A DNA stretch of 64,000 nt. Source: Bacillota bacterium. Its GTDB lineage: Bacteria > Bacillota > Sulfobacillia > JAIMAT01. Positions 8,541 through 51,903 of this stretch are shown here, one piece after another. Within the stretch, counting starts at the first letter, position 1. Each line of letters opens with the position of its first letter. Where the stretch lies: contig JASBVM010000005.1 in NCBI GenBank assembly GCA_029961055.1, positions 1 to 64,000 of the forward strand, given 5' to 3'. The notes beneath the pieces are model-generated. The model was not told where the DNA came from and ran no database searches. It saw nothing but the letters and a program-made list of their open reading frames with translations. The translations under genes were made by a program, and so were the position numbers.

Positions 8541-8611
8541 CAAGGCAAAAGCGCCTAATGTCTGAATAGTACCCCGCCTGGGCGCTCGAGATCGACGGGA
8601 GGTGACGATGC

Positions 8612-9691
8612 TTGGGTGGAGGTGGGCGTCACAGGAAGGTGGCGCTGGTGCCACTCGCTCTGGCGGCGGCGGCGCTGCTGGGTGGATGTGGGACCTATCC
8701 GCAGTCGGACTTCAACGCGGTCGGCCCGGTCTCCCAGCTGCAGCGGTCGGCGCTGGTGGAGGACATGCGCTTCCTGGGCGTCATCGGCATCATCGTGATC
8801 GGCTTGGTGGTCTACGCAGCGCTCCGGTTCCGTCACCGCCCCGGCCAGGAGGAGACCCCGGCGCAGATCGAGGGCAACCCCAGGCTGGAGATCGCCTGGT
8901 GGGTGGTGATCGCCCTGGGTCTCGTCTTCCTGGTGGTGCCGCCGCTCCGGGACGAGTTCGTCCTGGCCGGCGCGCCGAAAGGCCCTGGCGTCGTCCACGT
9001 CAAGGTGATCGGCCACCAGTGGTGGTGGGAGTTCCAGTACCCCGACTACAAGTTCGTGACCGCGAACGAGATGCACATCCCCGTGGGCGCGAAGGTGGAC
9101 CTCGAGGTCACCTCGGTCGACGTCATCCACAGCTTCTGGGCACCCAACATCGCCGGAACGCTGGACGCCATCCCAGGCCGCATCAACAGCGAGTGGATCC
9201 AGGCCGACAAGCCCGGCGTCTACTGGGGCCAGTGCAAGGAGTTCTGCGGGCTGAACCACGCCAACATGCGACTCCGGGTGGTGGCGGAGTCACCGGAGGA
9301 CTTTCAGAAGTGGGTGGAGTCGCATCAGCATCCGGTCGGCGTCTCGCAGCTGACGGGAGAGGCGCTGGCAGGCTGGCAGGTTTTCGACGGTCCCGGCACC
9401 TGCAAGAACTGCCACACCATCGACGGCACCGACGCCAAAGGGGTGATCGGGCCGAACCTGACCGGCATCGGCAGCCGCGTCGGTATCGGAGCGATGACCC
9501 TGGTCCCCAACGATACGGCCAACCTGGTCCGGTGGCTGCACGACCCCCAGTCGGTGAAGCCGGGCAACGACATGATCATCCCGAAGTTGAGCGACCAGCA
9601 GATCCGGGAGCTCGTCGCCTTCCTGCAGTCGCAGAAGACGTATGAGAGCCCCCAGGTGAAGGCTGCGCTGGAGAACCCGCTGGCCCCGTGA
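8612..9691 (+). CDS. ctaC: Cytochrome c oxidase subunit II with fused cytochrome c (caa3 type)
   Basis: Subunit II accepts electrons from cytochrome c and passes them via CuA to subunit I. A lipoprotein signal ends at LLGGC (Cys26), two membrane helices follow (about 53-70 and 92-110), then the cupredoxin domain. CuA ligands are intact: His173, Cys208, Glu210, Cys212, His216 and Met219. A C-terminal cytochrome c domain has CKNCH (Cys264/Cys267/His268) and a likely axial Met321, so the subunit carries its own heme c. The TTG at 8612 is chosen because GGGAGGTGA sits correctly in front of it; the ATG at 8608 is in another frame and overlaps the ribosome site. It heads the oxidase operon. Confidence 0.95.
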   Translation: MGGGGRHRKVALVPLALAAAALLGGCGTYPQSDFNAVGPVSQLQRSALVEDMRFLGVIGIIVIGLVVYAALRFRHRPGQEETPAQIEGNPRLEIAWWVVIALGLVFLVVPPLRDEFVLAGAPKGPGVVHVKVIGHQWWWEFQYPDYKFVTANEMHIPVGAKVDLEVTSVDVIHSFWAPNIAGTLDAIPGRINSEWIQADKPGVYWGQCKEFCGLNHANMRLRVVAESPEDFQKWVESHQHPVGVSQLTGEALAGWQVFDGPGTCKNCHTIDGTDAKGVIGPNLTGIGSRVGIGAMTLVPNDTANLVRWLHDPQSVKPGNDMIIPKLSDQQIRELVAFLQSQKTYESPQVKAALENPLAP

Positions 9692-47210: not shown

Positions 47211-48163
47211 GCCACCGCCCGGCTGACCTCTTCCTGGCGCGATGGGAGGAGGCGACGGTCGCCGAGCGGTCCGAGTGGGTGGTCGGCGTCAGCCTGGGGA
47301 GCCGCCGGCGCGACTTCGACCTCCGCCTGGAGGCGGAGGGGAGGCGCTGGCGGCTCCTTCGCGTCGGCACCGACGGCGACCTGGAGGCTGCGGAGCAGCT
47401 GATCAGCCGGCTCGACGGCCGGGTGGCCGCCATCGGCCTGGGCGGCATCAACCTGGCCTACCGGCTGCCGGGCCGCTCCTACGCGGCGCCGGAGGCGTGG
47501 CGCCTCGCCCGCCGGGCGCGGCGGACCCCCCTGGCGGACGGTTCCCTCTGGAAGGCGGCGGTCGAGCCGGAGGCGGTCCGGCTCCTCGGGGAGGCGGGCC
47601 TGGAGCCGGGCGAGGCCTTCCTCGCCAGTTACCTGGATCGGCCGGAGCTGGGCGAGGCGCTGGTCCGCGCCGGCTGGCGGGTCCGGGTGGGCGACGCCGC
47701 CCTGGCCCTGGGGCTGCCCTGGGCTCCGGGCCCGGCCGCCTTCCGCCGGGTCGCCCGGTGGACCCTGCCGTGGCTCCGCCGGCTTCCCATCCGGCGGCTC
47801 TACCCCCTGGGCGCCGCCCAGGAAGTGGCGGGCCGGAGCCGCCGCGGTCCCCTGGCGCGGTCCCGCCTTCTGGCGGGCGACTTTCACTTCCTCTACCGTC
47901 ATCTCCCGCTCCGCCTGGAGGGCCGCTGGATGCTGACCAGCACCGTCCGGCCCGGCGAGCTGGACGAGCTGCGTCGGCGCGGTCTCGAGGGCGTGCTCCT
48001 CCTGGGTCCCGGGTGGCGAGGGCTGGCGCCTGGAGCCAACCTGCTGGAGGCGCTGGCACGAGCCTGCGGCGTCCGGACCGACCCCGACGCCCTTCGCGGC
48101 TTCGCCCGCCGGAACGGCCTTCTGCCCACCTTCGCCCTCCGCCCCGCCGGACCGCCGAGGTGA
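47207..48163 (+). CDS. Protein of unknown function, resembling proteins named quinate 5-dehydrogenase
   Basis: About 318 residues. The N-terminal region VVGVSLGSRRRDFDLRLEAEGRRWRLLRVGTDGDLEAAEQLI and RVAAIGLGGINLAYRLPGRSYAAPEAWRLARRARRTPLADGS resembles proteins that databases often call quinate 5-dehydrogenase. I recall this only loosely, no enzyme activity can be read from the sequence, and I see no standard Rossmann GxGxxG motif. The start is unclear: TTG 47207 (coupled to the YHS stop) or GTG 47279 (better fit to the conserved beginning). It sits between the copper genes and ccmE. Confidence 0.55.
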   Translation: MSHRPADLFLARWEEATVAERSEWVVGVSLGSRRRDFDLRLEAEGRRWRLLRVGTDGDLEAAEQLISRLDGRVAAIGLGGINLAYRLPGRSYAAPEAWRLARRARRTPLADGSLWKAAVEPEAVRLLGEAGLEPGEAFLASYLDRPELGEALVRAGWRVRVGDAALALGLPWAPGPAAFRRVARWTLPWLRRLPIRRLYPLGAAQEVAGRSRRGPLARSRLLAGDFHFLYRHLPLRLEGRWMLTSTVRPGELDELRRRGLEGVLLLGPGWRGLAPGANLLEALARACGVRTDPDALRGFARRNGLLPTFALRPAGPPR

Positions 48164-48194
48164 AAGGTGCTCACCTTCAGTTGGGCCCGGGATT

Positions 48195-48671
48195 ATGCGA
48201 AAATGCACGTGCGATGAATTCGAAACGAGCCCGGACGGGGAAGGCCCTCGGTGGAAAGCGGGGCGATTCGGGTTGAGCAGGCGTTGGCGCTTGACGCTGG
48301 CCTTCTTCGTGGTCGTCGCGGTGGTGGGCGGCCTGGCCATCCGCTCCATCGCCCAGTCGGCCTCGGTCTACTACACGGTCGACCAGTACCTGGCCCAGGG
48401 AGCCTCCGCCTGGCAGCGACAGGCGGAGGTGAAGGGGACGGTGGTCCCGGGGAGCATCCGCTGGGACGGGACCCGGCTCCAGCTTCGCTTTTCGCTGGAG
48501 CATGGCGGGCGGGTCCTGCCGGTGCGGTATGAGGGCATGAAGCCGGACACGCTCCAGGCGGGGATCGAGGCGGTGGTGACCGGGAGCATGCGCGGCGGCA
48601 GCTTCGAGGCCCGTCACATCCTGGTCAAATGCCCGTCCAAGTACGTGCCCGCCACGCAGGGCAACGGGTGA
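48195..48671 (+). CDS. ccmE: Cytochrome c maturation heme chaperone CcmE (CxxxY type)
   Basis: CcmE carries heme covalently from the CcmABC(D) exporter to the ligase in System I. One N-terminal helix (LTLAFFVVVAVVGGLAI) is followed by the OB-fold (YYTVDQYLAQG, VKGTVVPGSIRWDG, LPVRYEGMKPDTL). The heme-binding motif is CPSKY (Cys146, Tyr150) instead of the classical HxxxY, a variant known in some sulfate reducers and archaea. ATG at 48195 gives 158 residues; TTG at 48273 (GLSRRWRLTL) would shorten it to a more typical N-terminus. Confidence 0.88.
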   Translation: MRKCTCDEFETSPDGEGPRWKAGRFGLSRRWRLTLAFFVVVAVVGGLAIRSIAQSASVYYTVDQYLAQGASAWQRQAEVKGTVVPGSIRWDGTRLQLRFSLEHGGRVLPVRYEGMKPDTLQAGIEAVVTGSMRGGSFEARHILVKCPSKYVPATQGNG

Positions 48672-49513
48672 GCGCGAGACTCGCCCGCTTCCCGGCCGCG
48701 CTCGTCCTCGCCCTGGCGCTCGTCCTGGTCCCGGGACCGGTCGCCGCGGGCGCGGCCGCTGCGGCCCCGGCGCCGGGCGGGCCGGTGGTGGCGAGCTCGC
48801 TCCGCTGGGTGATCACCCTCCAGGGGGGAGCGCCCGTGGTGCTGGAACTGGTGACCCTGGTCAACACGGGGTCGGAGGCCACCTCGGCCTGGTCCTGGCA
48901 GCTTCCTGCCGGCGCCCGGGAGGCCGCCCTCCAGACGGGGGGCGGCACGGCCAGGCTGAGCGGGGGCCGGCTGACGGACACGCGCGGACTGGCGCCGGGG
49001 GAGCAGCGGAGCTACGCGGTCCGGTACCGGCTTCCTTGGACGGTCCCCGGGGAGTTCCGCCTGCGCCCGTCGCTGCCGGTGGGCGCCGTGGCGGCGCTGG
49101 TGGACGAGGGGAGCGTCCGCCTCAGCGGGCCCGGTTGGGTCCGCCTGGGCGTGGTCAGCACGGCGGGGCGGGCGCTCCGCCAATATGCGCTGGACGAGCC
49201 GCTGGCGCCAGGGCAGACGGTCCGCTTCACACTCACGCCGCCCGACTGGTGGTATGAGCACGGGACGGGCTTCCTGGCCGGCGTCTGGGTGGCCCTGCTG
49301 GCCGGTGTGCCCGCGCTCGCGCTCTGGCTCTGGCGCCGCACGCGCCCCGAGCGGGAGCTGGAGCGGGTCCGCAGGGCGCTGGAACAGGTGGAGCGCCTGA
49401 GGACGGAAGGAAGGCTGGCTGAGGACCGGTACCGTCTCCGCCGCCAGCAGCTGGTGGACGAGGCGGCGGAACTCTGGCCGAAGGTAGGCGGCGGCCCGCG
49501 GCGGGCGGGGTGA
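48668..49513 (+). CDS. Membrane-anchored protein between ccmE and ccmA, unknown function
   Basis: I do not recognise this 281-residue protein. It has a signal peptide (ALVLALALVLVPGPVAA), an extracytoplasmic beta-rich domain (LRWVITLQGGAPVVLELVTLVNTGSEATSAWSWQLP, GEQRSYAVRYRLPW), one membrane helix (FLAGVWVALLAGVPALALWLW) and a cytoplasmic helical tail (ERELERVRRALEQVERLRTEGRLAEDRYRLRRQQL) like a SHOCT-type segment. GTG at 48668 overlaps the ccmE stop, so it belongs to the ccm operon and may be a cytochrome c assembly factor. Confidence 0.55.
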   Translation: MSARLARFPAALVLALALVLVPGPVAAGAAAAAPAPGGPVVASSLRWVITLQGGAPVVLELVTLVNTGSEATSAWSWQLPAGAREAALQTGGGTARLSGGRLTDTRGLAPGEQRSYAVRYRLPWTVPGEFRLRPSLPVGAVAALVDEGSVRLSGPGWVRLGVVSTAGRALRQYALDEPLAPGQTVRFTLTPPDWWYEHGTGFLAGVWVALLAGVPALALWLWRRTRPERELERVRRALEQVERLRTEGRLAEDRYRLRRQQLVDEAAELWPKVGGGPRRAG

Positions 49514-49520
49514 GCGCCGC

Positions 49521-50237
49521 ATGACGCTGCTGGAGGCCAGGGAGCTGGCCCTGCGGTTGGGCGACCGGCTGATCCTGCGCCGGGTGGACTTCGTCCTGGA
49601 GGCGGGCGAGCTGGCGCTGCTGCAGGGCCCGAACGGGGCGGGGAAGACCAGCCTGCTGCGCCTGCTGGCGGGAATGGAGCGGCCCTCGGCCGGCCAGCTG
49701 CTCTGGCGGGGGCGCCCCGTGCGCCAGTGGGGCCCGGCGTACCGGGGCGGGCTGGCGTGGGTGGGCCACCGGACCGGCCTCTACCCGAGGCTGACCGGGC
49801 GGGAGAGCCTCCTCCTCCAAGCCGCCGGCTACCCCTGGCTGTCCGCCGAGGAAGCCGGGCGGCGGGCGGAGGCGTGGCTCGCGCGAGCGGGACTGCTCCG
49901 CTGGGCGGACCGTCCCGTCTCGCACTACTCGCAGGGGATGCGGCAGCGGCTGGCCATCGCGCGGAGCTTCCTGCCGGAGCCGCAGCTGATCCTGCTGGAC
50001 GAGGCGGCGGGCGGGCTCGACGCGGAGGGGCGGCGTTTCCTCCGGCTGGCCCTGGACGAGGCGCGGGGCCGGGGCGCGGCGGCGGTGCTGGTCTCGCACG
50101 AGGCGGAGCCCGGCCTGGGGGAGGTGGACCGGCGCTGGTGGCTGGAGGCGGGCCGGCTGCGGGTGGAGACGGTGGGGCGGGCGGCCGGCGAGCGGAACGG
50201 GGCGCCCGCCCCTATGCCCGGGCGGTGGCCGCGGTGA
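49521..50237 (+). CDS. ccmA: Heme exporter ATP-binding protein CcmA
   Basis: The ABC ATPase of the CcmABCD complex that loads heme on CcmE. Walker A is GPNGAGKTSLL (about 34-44), the signature HYSQGMRQRLAIARSF, Walker B LILLDEAAGGLD and the switch His in VLVSHEAE. The length of 238 residues is slightly above average because of an Arg/Pro-rich tail that overlaps ccmB. It starts 8 bases after the upstream stop and is part of the ccm operon. Confidence 0.9.
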   Translation: MTLLEARELALRLGDRLILRRVDFVLEAGELALLQGPNGAGKTSLLRLLAGMERPSAGQLLWRGRPVRQWGPAYRGGLAWVGHRTGLYPRLTGRESLLLQAAGYPWLSAEEAGRRAEAWLARAGLLRWADRPVSHYSQGMRQRLAIARSFLPEPQLILLDEAAGGLDAEGRRFLRLALDEARGRGAAAVLVSHEAEPGLGEVDRRWWLEAGRLRVETVGRAAGERNGAPAPMPGRWPR

Positions 50238-50881
50238 TCCGCAAGGAGTTGCGGAGCGAGGCGCGGAGCGGCGAGACGCTGGGTGCCAGCCTCCTCTTCG
50301 CGCTCCTCCTCCTGACGCTCCTCAGCCTGACGGGCGGCGCCGGCGAGGATCCGGCGGGCGAGCGGTCGGCGGCCGTCCTCTGGCTCCTCCTCCTCTTCGC
50401 GGGCGCGCTGCTCCTCCATCGCTCCTTCGCCCAGGAGACGGAGGAGGACGCCTTCGCGCAACTCCTCCTCTGGCCGGTCGACCGGAGCGCGCTCTACTAT
50501 GGCAAGGCGGTGGCCAGCTGGCTCTACCTGGCCGTGCTGGGCGCCGTCGTCTGGCTGGCGGCCCTTCCCCTGCTGGGCGTCTCGGTGCGCGGACCGGCCT
50601 GGGTTCTGCCGGCGGTCCTGCTCCTGGGGACGGGGGGCGTGGCGGGAGCCGGCACCTTCCTGGCGGCGGTGACCGCGCGCCTGCGAGCCGCTCCCATCCT
50701 GCTGCCGATCCTGCTCTACCCGCTCCTGGTCCCGCTGGCCTTGGCGGCGATCCGCCTCGGTGGCTGGGCGCTGAGCGGGGCGGCCCCGGCGCCCGCGCTC
50801 TGGTGGGAGCTCCTCGTCGGATACGATCTGCTTTTCACGCTGGTGCCGGCGCTGCTCTTCGAACTCCTGTGGGAGGGATGA
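50234..50881 (+). CDS. ccmB: Heme exporter permease CcmB
   Basis: A 215-residue membrane protein with six helices. The start VIRKELRSEARSGETLGASLLFALLLLTLLSL and the segment QETEEDAFAQLLLWPVDRSALYYGKAVASW are characteristic of CcmB; the helix 5-6 block PILLPILLYPLLVPLALAAI also fits. GTG at 50234 overlaps the ccmA stop (GTGA); GTG 50225 is an alternative. It forms the ABC complex with CcmA and CcmC. Confidence 0.88.
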   Translation: MIRKELRSEARSGETLGASLLFALLLLTLLSLTGGAGEDPAGERSAAVLWLLLLFAGALLLHRSFAQETEEDAFAQLLLWPVDRSALYYGKAVASWLYLAVLGAVVWLAALPLLGVSVRGPAWVLPAVLLLGTGGVAGAGTFLAAVTARLRAAPILLPILLYPLLVPLALAAIRLGGWALSGAAPAPALWWELLVGYDLLFTLVPALLFELLWEG

Positions 50882-51618
50882 GCGCGATGCAGGCCTCGGG
50901 GAGGGGCGATGGCGGGATGCGACGGCCAGGACGGGAGGAGCGGCGGGGGCTTCCCTGGGTGGAGCTGTTCGCCGGGGTGGCGGTGCCGGTGGCGCTCTAC
51001 CTGGGGCTGGTCTGGGCGCCGCCCGAGCGGGTGATGGGCGACGTCCAGCGCATCATGTACTTCCATGTGGGCGCCGCCGTCACCGCCTATCTGGCCTTCG
51101 GGCTGGTGGCGGTCGCCTCCGCCCTCTATCTCTGGCGGCGACAGCCGCGCTGGGATCGGGTGGCGGTGGCGGCGGGCGAGGTGGGCCTCCTCTTCACCAC
51201 CGTCACCCTGCTCTCCGGCAGCGTCTGGGCCCGGTCGGCCTGGAACGTCTGGTGGCTCTGGCAGGACGCGCGCCTGACCACCACGCTGCTCATGTGGTTC
51301 CTCTATGCGGGCTATCTGCTCCTCCACCGGGCGGCCAGGGAGGAGGGCGGCCAGGGGGGCGCACTGGCCGCCGTCTACGGTCTGGCAGCCGTGGCCATCG
51401 TGCCGGTGGTCCACTTCTCGGTGGTCTGGTGGTACTCCAACCATCCGCAGGTGATCACGGCGCAGGGGATCCGGATGGCGCCCTCGATGGTGGCGGCGTT
51501 GATGGCGGCGATGGCGGCCTCCGTCGCGGTGGGAGCCGCCCTCTTCCTGGGGCGCTGGCGGCTGGAGGAGCTGCGCGAACGGGTGGCGGAACTGGAGATG
51601 CGCTCCGAGCGCTTCTAG
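50878..51618 (+). CDS. ccmC: Heme exporter/handling protein CcmC
   Basis: CcmC delivers heme to CcmE in the extracytoplasmic space. It has six helices, the tryptophan-rich WWD-type loop (WNVWWLWQDARLTTTLLMWFLY) and flanking heme-ligand His residues in IMYFHVG and VHFSVVWWYS. The length of 246 residues is normal; the last helix is followed by an Arg/Glu coiled tail. The start is ATG 50878, overlapping the ccmB stop, or ATG 50887, better spaced from GGGAGGG. Confidence 0.92.
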   Translation: MSAMQASGRGDGGMRRPGREERRGLPWVELFAGVAVPVALYLGLVWAPPERVMGDVQRIMYFHVGAAVTAYLAFGLVAVASALYLWRRQPRWDRVAVAAGEVGLLFTTVTLLSGSVWARSAWNVWWLWQDARLTTTLLMWFLYAGYLLLHRAAREEGGQGGALAAVYGLAAVAIVPVVHFSVVWWYSNHPQVITAQGIRMAPSMVAALMAAMAASVAVGAALFLGRWRLEELRERVAELEMRSERF

Positions 51619-51702
51619 GCGAGGGGCCGACGCGGGGGCGCCGCGCCGGGGGAGCAGGCGGAGAGGCGGAGGGGCGCAAGAGGCGGAGAGGGGAGCGGAG
51701 CG

Positions 51703-51903
51703 GTGGCCTGGGTGGCTCTGGCGTATGGACTGATCTGGCTCGGTCTGGCGGCTTACATCGTTCGACTGGCGGTGGCCACGCGCAGGTTGGAGGGGGAGGT
51801 GCGCCGCCTGGAGTCGACCCTGCCGGAGGAGCCGGCCTCCGCCCCCGTCTCCGGGGAGGGAGGCGGGCGAGGCCCGGCAAGGCGGCAGGAAGGCTCGGAC
51901 TGA
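51703..51903 (+). CDS. ccmD: Small CcmD-like membrane protein
   Basis: A 66-residue protein with one N-terminal helix (WVALAYGLIWLGLAAYIVRLAV) and a charged helical tail (TRRLEGEVRRLESTLPEE). This is the CcmD layout, a small subunit that helps release holo-CcmE from CcmC. GTG at 51703 has GGGGAGCGG in front. It follows ccmC by about 85 bases. No ccmF, ccmG or ccmH comes after; malate dehydrogenase follows instead. Confidence 0.75.
   Translation: MAWVALAYGLIWLGLAAYIVRLAVATRRLEGEVRRLESTLPEEPASAPVSGEGGGRGPARRQEGSD

Follow-up and report, generated by a model that had tools for sequence, protein, structure and literature searches.

The window (the whole stretch of 64,000 nucleotides that was analysed) carries a cluster of cytochrome c maturation genes that has no ccmF, ccmG or ccmH, which raises the question of how this member of the Bacillota completes its c-type cytochromes. 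The earlier note had concluded that the pathway must be completed elsewhere or by another route, and its grouping of ccmE, ccmA, ccmB, ccmC and ccmD could be confirmed, in gene set and order, by family matches. All genes are on the forward strand: ccmE for the heme chaperone (48195..48671; PF03100 82.1 bits, cut-off 24.6), ccmA for the ABC ATPase (49521..50237; PF00005 107.5 bits; TIGR01189 129.5 bits, just below the cut-off of 131.6), ccmB for the heme exporter permease (50234..50881, GTG start; PF03379 86.3 bits, cut-off 24.9), ccmC for the WWD heme-handling protein (50878..51618; PF01578 90.0 bits, cut-off 29.9; TIGR01191 119.6 bits) and ccmD for a short single-TM protein (51703..51903; TIGR04391 33.6 bits, cut-off 24). 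Between ccmE and ccmA lies a further gene, absent from the list in the earlier note and here called X (48668..49513, GTG start), for which a signal peptide, a beta domain outside the membrane, a single TM helix and a hairpin on the cytoplasmic side are predicted. Start and stop codons overlap at the junctions ccmE/X (GTGA), ccmA/ccmB (GTGA) and ccmB/ccmC (ATGA), and the gap from X to ccmA is 7 bp; because of these coupled junctions the cluster, including X, looks like one operon.

The CcmE protein of the window ends in ...ILVKCPSKYVPATQGNG, and direct reading of its CPSKY (CxxxY) motif, in the context KCPSKY, confirms the claimed Cys at the position of the heme-binding His of proteobacteria. 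The start of this gene is uncertain (ATG at 48195 or TTG at 48273). In another frame, positions 48150-48280 resemble the N-terminus of the CcmE of Bu54, the closest genome, and the true start may differ from ATG 48195.

The remaining System I genes were found in the same genome (2.28 Mb in 54 contigs, 96% complete; the window is on contig C5). Two WWD proteins exceed the PF01578 cut-off, namely CcmC of the window and a CcmF of 755 residues on contig C17 (L006 8956-11223, reverse strand; TIGR00353 427.6 bits, CcmF_C 204.3 bits), which retains the WGGYWGWDPVEN motif. Directly behind ccmF lies a gene for CcdA (DsbD_TM 83.8 bits), and also beside ccmF is a gene for a thioredoxin of the ResA/CcmG type with a WCPPC motif (L006 7040-8200, reverse strand). 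This thioredoxin is extended at its C-terminus by about 200 residues, which resemble a beta-propeller fragment (SGL, E 0.024). The ccmH gene is on contig C9 (LRCPVC motif; PF03918 94.2-94.8 bits) among unrelated neighbours, judged by eye to be smpB-, rnr- and SASP-like ORFs. The absence of ccmF, ccmG and ccmH thus holds for the cluster, as the earlier note had it, but not for the organism, and completion elsewhere proved to be the right one of the two options offered. An ordinary split cluster, which the note had named as the outcome that would speak against its view, is correct in substance, but the genes are on other contigs and not nearby. As for another route, nothing in the genome exceeds the cut-off for ResB (PF05140), the best score of 15.7 bits lying inside CcmF.

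Clients are also present. The c-type subunit II on which the earlier note relied is real: the open frame at 8606..9691 (forward strand, start not set) encodes a cytochrome oxidase subunit II with a C-terminal cytochrome c domain (PF00116, COX2, 89.8 bits; PF00034, Cytochrom_C, 40.4 bits) and a CKNCH motif, and is likely a client of this Ccm system. At least four c-type cytochrome ORFs of the genome exceed the PF00034 cut-off, i.e. this subunit and at least three more.

We therefore conclude, with a probability of about 0.9, that the organism has a complete System I of the variant called I*, with a Cys-type CcmE, split over three loci, so that the puzzle posed by the cluster is closed, with no ligase missing and no new route. 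The window cluster constitutes the heme-export and heme-chaperone half, and the ligase and thiol-reduction half is encoded at the two other places. By analogy with characterised homologues, heme would be transferred by CcmABCD onto Cys146 of CcmE, and from CcmE to CcmF, which together with CcmH would ligate it to apocytochromes, whose thiols CcdA and the ResA/CcmG-type thioredoxin would keep in the reduced state. A minimal System I* that lacks CcmFGH has a precedent in the Desulfovibrio-type System I*, which functions in E. coli without CcmG and CcmH (PMC3601427), but in a genome with CcmF, CcmH, CcdA and a ResA-type thioredoxin, and with no ResB above cut-off, maturation by such a system or by System II is extremely improbable; for this genome it is refuted unless contigs C9 and C17 are contaminants.

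With respect to known systems, the genome contains the CcmA, CcmB, CcmC, CcmE and CcmF of System I, an LRCxxC CcmH and a CcmG/CcdA reductant path, and no PF05140 match above cut-off for the ResB/CcsB of System II. The variant Ccm system with a CxxxY CcmE, System I*, was reportedly described by Allen in 2006 and by Goddard in 2010. The present system has the CxxxY motif, but not the absence of CcmH that belonged to the original 2006 definition, given the CcmH on contig C9. It shares with System I* (reviewed in PMC3601427) the CPSKY CcmE, CcmABCD and CcmF, and members from Firmicutes as well as members with CcmH have already been reported; it differs in the distribution over three loci, a CcmF with a tail like the N-terminal part of CcmI, the extra protein X and a residue inserted in the WxWD motif of CcmC. 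Compared with canonical System I (ccmABCDEFGH of E. coli), a candidate is present for every role from A to H, including the LRCxxC CcmH and the CcmG-type thioredoxin, whereas CcmE is of the Cys type, no canonical CcmI was found, the ResA-like thioredoxin has its C-terminal extension, and the ccm genes are not confined to one operon. The main finding is a further example of a known variant, and it is X, rather than the split System I* itself, that is worth following.

The earlier view that such a system is unusual in Firmicutes holds only in part. A PF03100 search of a sample of 398 genomes from the phylum found CcmE in 84, and Cys-type CcmE in Firmicutes, with or without CcmH, was reported in 2011. 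All 90 full-length CcmE copies of these 84 genomes, in each of which the motif was read, have the Cys, mostly as CPSKY (two partial matches were unreadable and left out of this count). Since the same search recovers the E. coli and Caulobacter controls, a His-type CcmE would not have escaped. CPSKY-type CcmE also occurs in named loci of Bacillota, Chloroflexota, Nitrospirota, deltaproteobacteria and archaea. CcmH exceeds its cut-off in 44 of the 398 genomes and in 42 of the 84 with CcmE, and on this count we rejected the notion that a Cys-type CcmE goes together with absence of CcmH. The 2011 review had listed Cys-type CcmE from delta-proteobacteria, chloroflexi and firmicutes, with CPSKY in 25 of 36 and CcmH in about a third, and had stated that absence of CcmH is not characteristic of these systems (PMC3601427); in M. 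acetivorans, heme attachment needs the Cys of CcmE (PMC9084895). The Cys type is thus the sole CcmE type in the phylum sample, commonly beside CcmH, and 'Cys CcmE means no CcmH' is unfit as an annotation rule.

Protein X matched no Pfam or NCBIfam family, and a search of the open literature found nothing on X or on ccm clusters of Bacillota, which is not proof of absence. A single-sequence search (phmmer) yielded few relatives, others being reached by profile only. Proteins of the same layout occupy the slot just upstream of ccmA in many other genomes: a 12-member profile detected many non-seed relatives, most of which stop where ccmA begins. They occur in Bacillaceae, Alicyclobacillus and other Bacillota and, more weakly, in loci of Chloroflexota, Nitrospirota and archaea, the exceptions to this slot having X beside ccmF. 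As the loci searched with this profile had been pre-selected for ccmE, the evidence lies in the position of X and not in its presence. The latter was addressed with a 25-member profile, which places the outer domain of X in 35 of the 398 phylum genomes; 34 of these 35 have CcmE, versus 84 of 398 overall (Fisher p 6e-25, a significance that is overstated, as such p-values ignore kinship and genomes of the same family are not independent). The sole genome with X and no CcmE, G083, is a fragmented assembly in which CcmH is present. Among genomes with CcmE, X was found in 31 of 42 that also have CcmH (18 families), versus 3 of 42 that have no CcmH (2 families). X is a conserved membrane protein, apparently without a name so far, and has the look of an additional System I subunit.

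The outer domain could be assigned a fold. An AlphaFold2 model of X (25-row alignment) has a mean pLDDT of 84.9 and reaches about 90 or higher across most of the stretch from residue 51 to 200. The best structural match of the outer domain is ribophorin I of the oligosaccharyltransferase (Foldseek E 7e-9; VIA Z 12.5, rmsd 3.1, 158 residues), tied with the M1 aminopeptidase N-terminal domain (Z 12.2). The predicted fold of residues 48-206 thus resembles ribophorin I/Ost1 and the M1 N-domain with Z of about 12 and rmsd of about 3.1-3.5 over 145-158 residues, a likeness of fold only that implies no shared function; the identity to X is 8-18%, X has no catalytic domain, and the cellular systems are different.

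The cytoplasmic tail of X points towards CcmI. In its own genome, a profile of 25 X homologues hits X and one other place only, the C-terminal tail of CcmF; the X tail is also similar to a small ORF that stands by itself after ccmF or ccmH in other clusters. The three groups could be aligned by hhalign: X tails with the small ORFs (97%, E 4e-11), the small ORFs with CcmF tails (99%, E 1e-15) and X tails with CcmF tails (97%, E 6e-10). The family matched by most members is TIGR03142, the N-terminal module of CcmI (11 of 25 X proteins, 9 of 12 small ORFs and 8 of 11 CcmF tails), with almost all matches below the curated cut-off and a best E of 1e-4 among X homologues; one small ORF, of genome G125, exceeds the cut-off (36.6 versus 29.3 bits). 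Neither X of the window nor the CcmF tail of the same genome matches TIGR03142 on its own, and no protein of this genome matched it at E 0.01, i.e. no canonical CcmI was found there. The cytoplasmic C-terminal tail of the CcmF on contig C17 is like the N-terminal module of CcmI; in Bacillaceae its counterpart is encoded on its own, by a small gene behind ccmH. Some of the small CcmI-N-like proteins of ccm clusters end in a zinc ribbon (L165 12933-13418, L136 8469-9029).

These tails might instead be generic hairpins of the SHOCT-like kind that arose convergently in X, the small ORFs and CcmF, with no common ancestry. The hairpin is short, helical and of low information, and a few members weakly match SHOCT or GvpG; however, no family other than TIGR03142 is matched by many of them, the G125 ORF passes the CcmI cut-off, and apart from X itself the X profile hits nothing in the genome but the CcmF tail, and we regard convergence as rather unlikely.

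In proteobacteria, CcmI connects CcmF with CcmH, and its periplasmic TPR domain is believed to hold the apocytochrome (PMC3884852). X resembles CcmI (CycH) in having a membrane helix, a cytoplasmic hairpin and a large extracytoplasmic domain, and in being encoded in or near ccm clusters, but the domain order is reversed, there is one TM helix after a signal peptide, and a beta domain is found in place of the TPR repeats. X is accordingly no member of the CcmI family as defined: it does not reach the TIGR03142 cut-off, and instead of a periplasmic TPR domain a beta sandwich is predicted. Because its membrane helix and the hairpin on the cytoplasmic side are similar to the N-terminal module of CcmI, we propose, at somewhat less than even odds, that X is a CcmI-like accessory subunit standing in for CcmI. 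Its ribophorin I/M1-N-like outer domain would take over the task of the proteobacterial CcmI TPR domain and hold apocytochrome or CcmE.

A role in the other half of the machinery is suggested by gene order, since X lies between ccmE and ccmA, with ccmF elsewhere, not just in this genome but also in Bu54 (L134) and several relatives: it could help CcmABCD to load or release holo-CcmE, and not act with the CcmFH ligase. We consider this rather improbable, as X follows ccmF in L068, L069 and L070 and lies between ccmF and ccmH in L125, tracks CcmH in the counts given above and has its tail module in common with CcmF. Our preferred reading remains the CcmI counterpart. In its fullest form, put forward tentatively and also with the odds slightly against it, this reading makes X a so far undescribed subunit of Cys-type System I that is widely conserved, in Bacillota as well as in other phyla. 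Its ribophorin I/M1-N-like domain, anchored in the membrane and carried by a cytoplasmic hairpin of the CcmI type, would offer apocytochrome (or CcmE) to CcmFH where CcmI uses its TPR domain, and the N-terminal module of CcmI would have become distributed over X, the tails of CcmF and small proteins of their own. If X and the CcmI-like tails are confirmed, they would account for the operation of System I in Bacillota without canonical CcmI, and X would be a testable extra subunit of a machine whose ligation step is poorly understood.

Finally, CcmC of the window deviates in its heme-handling motif WxWD (reviewed in PMC12285233). It reads WNVWWLWQDARL, with one extra residue between WxW and D, and most relatives have WNVWWTWDPRL; i.e. 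WWLWQDAR is found versus WWTWDPR, with Gln at the Asp position and the Asp shifted on by one. The same insertion is present in the MAG Bu54 (L134 11787-13412), whose CcmE is 78% identical. One extra residue in WxWD was seen in 7 of 68 CcmC-like ORFs, five of which are from Bacillaceae with WDDPRL (WWVWDDPR).
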